Source: Branchiostoma floridae | Taxonomy: Eukaryota; Chordata; Leptocardii; Amphioxiformes; Branchiostomatidae | Reading direction: 5' to 3' | DNA length: 64,000 bases | Assembly: GCF_000003815.2 (NCBI RefSeq) | Contig: NC_049980.1 | Coordinates: 25,688,272-25,752,271, forward strand | Shown here: positions 42,401-45,400 of the stretch, one piece after another | How positions within the stretch are numbered: the first letter of the stretch is position 1 | Layout: the number at the start of each line of letters is the position of its first letter | Translations under genes and position numbers: made by a program | Notes under the pieces: generated by a model | Told to the model about the DNA's origin: nothing | What the model saw: only the letters and a program-made list of their open reading frames with translations | Database searches by the model: none

Positions 42401-45400
42401 ATGGGAAATGGAGCATGTACATGTCAGCTAGCTCCTCTGATCTTGCATGTGTGCATGCTGCATGGATACATGCCTGCACTATAACCCATAGGATAATTTC
42501 AGTGGGACAGAAGTATCTGCCAATCCCTCGTAATATGGAAAAACCACAAGTTTCTCGACAAAATGTTCCCATCCTTAACTGTAGCATTGGTTTGTGTAAT
42601 GTTGCCTCAGAGCAGTGCCTCAGCCCAAAGTTACCTCTCTGCACTGTTGGTCCATCTCTGCTAACAGGGAGTGGGTGCAAAATTTAATGTGCTGCAGGTG
42701 AAGATGTAGGGGGAGAATTGATGACGTGCCATCTCAGTAAACGCAAATGTTTTGTCGAGTAAACTGCAGGTTGTTGGCATTATGTGTACATGTAGATGTT
42801 CTATGTGGAGACTTTGCTATGTCAGTGCTGATCTGGTGTGTCCTGATCTCTCTCCTTCTCTCTTGCCTCTCCGTGGTGGTGGTGGTTGCTCCTTAAGACG
42901 GTGAAGGGTGGCGTGGCAGAAACACGCATTGAGAAGAGAATCGTCATTACGGGAGATACTGACATTGACCACGACCAGGTAAACCTTCTGTTCATTTGGC
43001 ACCACCATGACATCCCTCCCAACTCTCATCTGCTGACCTCCACCCACCATGATATCTCCCTCCATATTATAACCCTACCGTCATCACCCGTGCTAACTAA
43101 AGTTACAGTCATTGCATTGTGCATTTAAAGTCTTAAAGTCAAAGAAATTTATGTTTCATCACATAAACACCACAATTAAACTACTCCCTAGAATTAATTA
43201 CTTATGCAGTTTTTTGGGGTTGTGGGGAGAAAGATTGAATGATAAATCTAAGTGTACATCATGGTAATCATGCCATCACGCAGTGTGCATTCTTGTATAT
43301 GTTCATCCGTCATTTCTAAGCATAAATGTTTTTATTTTGCACTCTCATGTTTATTTCTGTCAGCATTGCATGATTGTGATTTTGAACTTAGCCGTGGTTG
43401 CTGATGGTAGGACACCAGGCAATTCAAATTCCACTTTTTACATACTCTTTCCAACATCCCGGATGATTACTACAAGGAATGTGTTACATCAAGTAAAAGT
43501 TTTATGTAAAACTTTAAGGCCGTTGTATTAGATCTTGCATGGTTATTTTCAGTAGGTTGGAACTGAGTTCCAAGCCATAACAAGGACAATTAAAAGTTGC
43601 AAAGGTTGATAGATTTCAGGTATCCCATTCCAAATACATAGGAATAGTTGTTGATGGCAGGATTCTTACACTAAAGGAGTACAGTTTTAGGAGGGACTGT
43701 TGTCAACCTGAAACAGGATTGCAGCCAAAATTTGTGCTCAAACAGTAAGTGATTGACCCTGTCCTTTTTAGCTAGCTTCAAAGCATCCCGATTATTTTCA
43801 TTTTGGTTTTAAACTTGGTATTAAGGGACCAAATAGCTCTCAAAATGGAATGGAAGATCACGAAAAAAAATGAAAGAAGCTCTCGTGGTAATGTCACTTA
43901 ATGGAGCACACTATTGGTGTCTTATTGCCACACCTTACCTTGTGCAGTACATGAAGAAAGATGGCACGCTAGAGACTCACATGGAAAGAACCACTGTCCT
44001 CACAGGGGATTCAAACCAGGATGAGGTGAGGACACCCCCGTCCAGTGGTGTCTCCCTAGGTGGTGGGATCTAATCTTTAACCACAAGTCCTTGTTCGGCC
44101 CACTTCGTTCACCCTGATACGTGTAAACTTTTTCTTTGGCTTGCTCCAGCGTATCCATATGTATCTAAGTGTATCAAAATCAATTTTAGTACTAACATCT
44201 GTCATGTAGAGAAGGTAATACTCTCTAGTGTCTCTAGAAACTTTTTGATATTCCTTTTGGCTGAAAAAATTGTTTTTTTTAACAGTTCAAAGTCAATAAA
44301 ATGTGTTACAAAAATGTTCCCATGTCTCTGCAAAAAGAAAGCTCTTACTGGACCTTTTCCTCCAAACTAACATTTCTACTTACACTCCACTTACAAACAA
44401 TGAAATGTATTTGTTTTCCCTGACATAGTGCTACCATGAAATGTTAATACCAATAGTCAAAATGTATACATCATCTGTTGTCCAATGTTTAATCTTGATG
44501 GTATCTCAGTGACTAACTTGTTAATGATAAGGAGTAGAATAACTGAATCATGACAAATGAAGCTGTAAATATTTACTGGAAGGAAAGTGTCCCACATAAT
44601 GCCTACTAATGAACTGAAGGTAGCAATAACTAGCTGCCAGTGACCGGTAACCATGCATACTTCGCTAATGTGTCTGCTCTGTGTTGTACAATGTTTTGTA
44701 GAGAGTCAACTCTCTAGCCTGACATAGTCTGACCTTTCGTTTTCAGTTTCCCCACCATATTCATTTGTTCATATGTAGTGCATGAAATCTGTTGGCATGA
44801 TTGTAGACTCACAAGTTTTCGCAACTCAACGCAAAGCAACTCATATTGAAAACTACAAGCCATTCCAGTTAAAACTTTCCATAAACTTTAACCATGCTGG
44901 AAATGCCCTGCAAATAATCTTGTGCTCCATGCTTGAAATTCTTAAAAACATCACTTGCATTTAGTTTACTGCACAAGTGTGTCACAATGGCACTTTTGCA
45001 CCTTACTCTTCAGTAGTGCTTTATGTGTTGCTTGCAGTAAGTGTTGTTGGTCTTCCTCTCAAAAGTACTGCATTTCACCACCTTGCACCTTCCAAGCCCA
45101 GCCTGTGCTGTGAGTAATCATTGCAAGAATGCCTGATAGCTCGGTCCCTTACAGAGAGGTAAAAACTATTGCATCTGAGCAAGTTGAGCAACAAACTAGG
45201 TACCCCTTTTTTTATTTTTATTTTTTATTCTAACAATGGCAGGAGTGTTTTAGGTAGCTACCCCCTCCAACGTCCCGTAGCACTAGCTCTATGGTGTTGA
45301 TCATTCTTGCTCTCTACAAACCCATCAACGCTTCCTGTCTCTGACTTTTCTACCGCCTCAGGCTCTTGCTGACCTGATTAAGGAAGCTGCAGACCAAAAC

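Follow-up and report, generated by a model that had tools for sequence, protein, structure and literature searches.

The cassette at positions 43948-44025 (plus strand) of a 64,000-nucleotide stretch of Branchiostoma floridae contig NC_049980.1, hereafter the window, is best explained as a real, alternatively spliced coding exon in a protein 4.1 gene, one that would be used in place of the neighboring canonical exon, giving two C-terminal domains (CTDs). From the sequence of the locus, we put the probability of this reading at just over one half. The cassette would have arisen by an old tandem duplication of the adjacent CTD exon, and between shared exons that end at 42102 and start at 45362 a transcript would contain one of the two, canonical or duplicate. 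The two resulting CTDs would have their helix and second strand in common and would differ in the first strand and in the strand-helix turn, which would be two residues shorter with the duplicate. Such a swap would alter the module that binds NuMA and TMEM24 in vertebrates, and could retune or eliminate its binding to some partners without affecting FERM-membrane binding.

A diverged copy of a CTD exon in a protein 4.1 gene

A protein 4.1 gene lies on the plus strand of the window, with a 4_1_CTD and a FERM match both on this strand. Pfam FERM_M matched at 31861-32133 (+; 37.2 bits, cutoff 23.8), and a second FERM_M match at 33205-33579 (+) scored 22.3 bits, under the same cutoff. A canonical CTD assembled from exons 41875-42102, 42898-42978 and 45362-45505 matched Pfam 4_1_CTD (PF05902) with 162.4 bits (E = 4.1e-48, cutoff 25). 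Judging by strand and order, the FERM_M matches and the CTD exons would belong to one transcript. The upstream CTD exon (41875-42102, +) contains 76 codons in the reading frame of an ORF at 41869-42180 and ends at 42102 in phase 0. The 4_1_CTD match starts inside this exon, and its donor, AAG/gtatccatgg, is weak as a U2-type site and U12-like. The canonical exon (42898-42978, +) is 81 nt long (27 codons, phase 0/0), with AG before it, GT after it and a weak acceptor (...ccttaag). By eye, 24 of its 27 residues are identical to residues 6-32 of human 4.1R-CTD64 (human sequence from PMC2834593). The last coding exon (45362-45505, +) starts in phase 0 and ends in TAG.

Several other features were found in the window. 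An acceptor-like ...cccgtacag is followed at 46657-46680 (+) by ACGACTGACGATGCCCAACAGTAG (TTDDAQQ, then a stop), which we picked out by eye and which might serve the 4.1 gene as an alternative last exon. Two adjacent ORFs at 30868-31191 and 31195-31287 (+) have a 14-residue stretch in common (score 58); the position of this pair at 30868-31287 suggests a tandem duplication within an intron, separate from that of the CTD exon. A 1000-amino-acid ORF at 50913-53912 (+), downstream of the 4.1 gene, matches RVT_1 (110.3 bits) and has an endonuclease match below cutoff; by these matches it is a near-intact ORF of a non-LTR-type retrotransposon. Finally, a cysteine-rich ORF on the minus strand at 62327-62572, with a good acceptor in front of it, matches Pfam Prokineticin (30.6 bits, cutoff 21.6) and is probably an exon of a prokineticin-like gene.

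The diverged tandem duplicate of the canonical exon lies between that exon (42898-42978) and the last exon (starting at 45362). It occupies 43948-44025 (+), is 78 nt long (26 codons, phase 0/0) and is preceded by ...gtgcag and followed by gtgagg. Its position, frame and splice dinucleotides agree with the initial annotation, as does an identity of 7 of 13 residues with the canonical exon. The full gapless alignment has 22 positions, of which 10 are identical and five others carry conservative substitutions (I/M, K/R, I/L, T/S and D/N). The similarity score of the two peptides is 53, compared with 32 for the best unrelated one of all open segments with 12 or more amino acids in the six frames of the 64 kb; no other six-frame segment of the window rises above 32 as a candidate third copy of the exon. 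None of 20,000 shuffled versions of the duplicate peptide reached 53 (maximum 44), and the similarity of the two exons at the DNA level was 13, compared with a shuffle mean of 7.4 (p = 0.007). We also scored, all against all, 354 plus-strand ORFs of at least 26 amino acids at 18000-46800, taking pairs with starts within 5 kb. In this comparison, 97 pairs scored at least 36 and two pairs besides canonical and duplicate scored above 50. Pairs without evident relation scored up to 48, indicating that raw similarity alone would not settle the homology of the duplicate. Rather, it is the combination of similarity, position, splice sites and profile that makes the case for the duplicate.

The splice sites of the duplicate, described as good in the initial annotation, have good consensus scores. 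Using approximate U2 and U12 scoring matrices, we obtained U2 scores of 6.05 for the acceptor and 10.29 for the donor of the duplicate, both above those of the canonical exon (1.95 and 7.55, respectively). Including the duplicate, there are two open phase-0/0 cassettes of 60-120 nt with splice sites this strong on the plus strand of the 64 kb.

The profile of the spliced CTD provided a further line of evidence. Swapping the duplicate in for the canonical exon gave 116.7 Pfam 4_1_CTD bits, compared with 162.4 for the canonical form and 82.2 when neither exon was included. In a shorter construct, the swap scored 108.8 bits and skipping of the exon 76.0. As controls, we inserted four shuffled duplicate peptides (81.3-85.6 bits) and four unrelated cassettes from the window (77.9-91.5 bits) into the shorter construct; the signal of the duplicate exceeds the best of these eight inserts by 17 bits. 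The swapped CTD also matched PDB chain 8i8y (E = 9e-8), in an alignment that consists mostly of the last exon and in which the duplicate is represented by just its final 15 residues. Homology, an open frame, a shared phase and splice-site consensus are all shown for the duplicate.

A copy with these properties could nonetheless be unused and decaying, its frame and splice dinucleotides kept by chance. To gauge how often chance would suffice, we simulated neutral copies: 2.5-4.8% kept their frame and AG/GT at dN 0.42, the value measured between duplicate and canonical exon (dS is saturated), and 1.2-10.1% did so over the whole grid. Other features that fit decay are the identity of just 10 of 22 residues, the loss of canonical I20, R19 and I28 (human CTD64 numbering) and flanks that have diverged past recognition. 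No similarity of the flanking introns was detected (p = 0.91 and 0.19), in a test whose power is only 18-56% at such divergence. The two exons differ at 6, 8 and 14 of 22 sites at codon positions 1, 2 and 3, respectively. This contrast owes partly to constraint on the canonical copy, and at third positions there is no clear departure from the neutral expectation. However, the splice sites of the duplicate outscore those of the canonical exon by the approximate matrix, its profile signal stands 17 bits above the best of eight controls and several of its substitutions are conservative. On balance, neutral decay is disfavored and we regard it as unlikely; as judged from the locus alone, selection on the duplicate is likely.

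Possible choice between the two exons

We infer that the duplicate is expressed and that each of the two exons stands in for the other. The tandem duplication of a CTD exon in the initial annotation is upheld by similarity, splice sites and Pfam profile; the mutual exclusion proposed with it stands as a plausible candidate only. Both exons are multiples of three, and double inclusion or skipping leaves the frame intact. The intron between the canonical exon and the duplicate is 969 nt long. In the human exon atlas, steric interference is counted at less than 50 bp from donor to branch point (PMC5740500), and by our reading the intron is therefore too long for steric exclusion. Accordingly, neither a frame break nor a short intron provides built-in enforcement at this locus, and such enforcement is not obligatory for the mutually exclusive class.

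These properties bear on a second reading, in which the duplicate is an ordinary in-frame cassette that some transcripts include in addition to, and downstream of, the canonical exon, placing both versions of the strand in tandem. Frame is kept by both exons, the construct with both scored 159.7 Pfam bits, near the canonical 162.4, and the intervening intron of 969 nt has a U2-like donor. Furthermore, CTD64 of 4.1R is described as largely unfolded (PMC2834593), and an insertion of 26 residues may be tolerated. By contrast, the Pfam match of this construct is broken into two stretches by the insertion. The exons are also adjacent and homologous, have the same phase and are similar in length (81 vs 78 nt), and these are the properties used to predict mutually exclusive exons in the human atlas (PMC5740500). 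We consider simple addition of the cassette unlikely.

If the canonical exon and the duplicate are indeed alternatives, their use could be controlled by splicing factors. The weaker canonical 3' splice site lies behind a CU-rich tract and a UGCAUG cluster, and factors acting there might shift use to or from the stronger duplicate. In the cluster (42444-42464, +), TGCATG, a motif of Rbfox type, appears three times within 21 nt; nowhere else in the window, on either strand, do three copies fall within 40 nt. The CU-rich tract (42847-42863, +), with TCTCT at 42847, 42849, 42857 and 42859, lies 34 nt before the canonical exon and is a possible PTB-type site. In the interval 42103-45361, TGCATG occurs 7 times (2.44 expected) and CTCTCT 6 times (1.27 expected), an enrichment that is weak on account of the choice of the seven counted motif strings after reading the sequence. 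TTCTC was not enriched in the same interval (2 observed, 3.36 expected).

We also considered whether exclusion could be strict and built into the pre-mRNA, by a U12-type upstream donor or by an RNA helix, such that it swaps a partner-binding CTD strand in a chordate 4.1 protein. Taken as a whole, we find this improbable. In MAPK8-type exon pairs, exclusion is achieved by splice-site class. Were the same to operate here, the upstream donor and the duplicate acceptor would be U12-type, and the canonical U2 donor would be unable to join the duplicate. The upstream donor, GTATCCATGG, agrees with RTATCCTT in 7 of 8 positions. By the approximate U12 matrix it ranks 10 among the 4,348 GT sites of the window, and its U2 score is low (4.0). 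The U12 scores of the canonical and duplicate donors are -1.38 and -20.5, respectively, and neither is U12-like. The significance of such a donor depends on its partner: a U12-type upstream donor together with a U12 acceptor at the duplicate would impose strict exclusion, whereas with a U2 acceptor the duplicate would be usable only after the canonical exon. The latter combination would make the added cassette discussed above the only route to the duplicate.

The acceptor side gave mixed results. A U12 branch-like element, CTCCTTAAG (42889-42897, +), ends at the canonical 3' splice site. The AG at U12 spacing from it is 42905-42906, 9 nt past that site and inside the TVK codons, making a feature that extends over 42889-42906; lying 10 nt before the AG at 42906, the element has a branch score of 7.97, in the top 1.3% of AG sites. 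However, no U12 branch has the right spacing for the canonical 3' site at 42897, the one that the conserved TVK codons call for (-2.46, a score that 68% of AG sites reach). At the duplicate, CACCTTACC lies 9 nt from the acceptor and scores 3.99, an indecisive value matched by 10.4% of AG sites. As for the donor motif, RTATCCNT is present 10 times on the window's plus strand. Minor introns are biased away from phase 0 (PMC10639083), which is the phase of the intron that follows the upstream CTD exon. Finally, in the human atlas, such splice-class clashes are rare, with five cases or 0.79% of clusters (PMC5740500). Exclusion by splice-site class is highly improbable in our estimate. As a separate observation, the top U12-type donor match among the 4,348 GT sites is GTATCCTTTG at 25597 (+), a putative site in the 4.1 gene region that scored 16.1 with the approximate matrix.

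The second device would be a helix between the region of the upstream donor and the intron past the duplicate that loops out both exons and governs the choice. A 17-nt perfect inverted repeat has its 5' arm at 42108-42124 (+), where it takes up positions +6 to +22 of the intron that follows the upstream exon, and its 3' arm at 44639-44655 (+), in the intron after the duplicate. The arms enclose the exon pair and have no other match within three mismatches in the window. The best duplex has an energy of -41.3 kcal/mol, below the minimum of 150 random window segments (-36.3, mean -25.2), with the null scanned more coarsely (step 12) than the query (step 5). An extended duplex reaches -54.2 and spans the upstream donor itself. 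On the other hand, the window contains seven perfect inverted repeats, this pair included, that are 17 nt or longer and whose arms lie within 6 kb, and mobile repeats are thus a ready source. No second selector for the 42108-42124 arm was found: the next site, in the intron between the exons, reaches -27.6, within the null. We accordingly rejected docking/selector control. Whole-intron hybridization, an insensitive measure, was no better than shuffles for A:B (-313.1 vs -313.1), A:C (-335.2 vs -331.6, sd 12.1) or B:C (-349.1 vs -335.7, sd 11.0). Rfam gave no match in the window at gathering thresholds. We give control by this helix very little credence, less even than exclusion by splice-site class. 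Elsewhere in the window, a perfect 33-nt inverted repeat at 60232-60264 and 60743-60775 recurs in part at 59113-59128, suggesting that it is probably of a mobile repeat family.

Predicted effect on the CTD and its partners

Replacement of the canonical exon by the duplicate would have a structural consequence and an effect on partners. In human numbering, the duplicate would change the strand from R19 to T, I20 to T and I22 to L. Alignment to PDB 8i8y places a turn two residues shorter ahead of the helix; in this structure 4.1G is fused to NuMA, and its one helix and three strands are described in PMC12618002. In NMR work on 4.1R, by our count from PMC2834593, 12 of the 23 residues perturbed by an unphosphorylated NuMA peptide lie in the canonical exon. 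Five of these 12 are identical in the duplicate by our own count, whether the alignment is gapless or has the two-residue gap. When the NuMA peptide is phosphorylated, the exon holds only 5 of the 24 residues perturbed, by the same count (PMC2834593), and the swap might therefore matter little for that form. The same source describes 4.1R CTD64 as mostly unfolded in solution. For 4.1G, the CTD is reported as necessary and sufficient for co-localization with TMEM24, and recruitment is predicted to involve interlocking of beta-strands (PMC11334333). Collectively, these data make a shift in the partner preference of the CTD a reasonable inference, not a result.

Our analysis does not support charge as the basis of such a shift. 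The initial annotation had proposed that the duplicate lost most basic residues and that the swap would change the charge of the CTD. The number of lysines and arginines falls just from 4 to 3, and the net charge goes from -2 to -3. The claimed change was thus overstated, with a net shift of -1, and electrostatic charge was judged not to be a determinant of 4.1R-NuMA binding in PMC2834593. For these reasons, we rejected a charge swap as the main consequence.

The CTD ties 4.1 proteins to NuMA, in spindle positioning, and to TMEM24/C2CD2, at contacts between the ER and the plasma membrane at cell junctions. If our reading is correct, one 4.1 gene would produce proteins in which a shared membrane anchor is combined with different adaptors. 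A natural strand variant would also offer a test of the residues on which specificity depends in the mostly disordered CTD. If strict exclusion were also true, splicing in one gene would give part of the diversity of the four vertebrate 4.1 paralogues.

Comparison with known systems

The human atlas counts 1,399 mutually exclusive exons (PMC5740500), and the name EPB41 is absent from its main text. In the open-licence literature covered here, we found no mention of such an exon pair in any 4.1 gene and no occurrence of the duplicate's peptide. The pair resembles tandem mutually exclusive exons, as described in that atlas and in work on the competing-structure model (PMC6071210), in adjacency, homology, equal phase, lengths of 81 and 78 nt and an intron of about 1 kb. 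It differs from them in having no enforcement by frame or intron length and in being predicted here from sequence. Similarly, the strong long-range intronic helix that flanks the exon pair is like the docking/selector RNA pairing of Dscam type (PMC6071210), whereas the 4.1 helix has one partner and no competing selector was found for it. Within the 4.1 family, both forms match the CTD profile (PF05902) well above the cutoff of 25 bits, at 162.4 for the canonical isoform and 116.7 for the swapped one, and what differs from the family is the presence of a second, homologous exon that encodes the strand and turn. We know of no such second exon in vertebrate 4.1 genes. Tandemly duplicated alternative exons are a common and well-known kind, and the position of this pair in the CTD of a 4.1 protein is of some functional interest.
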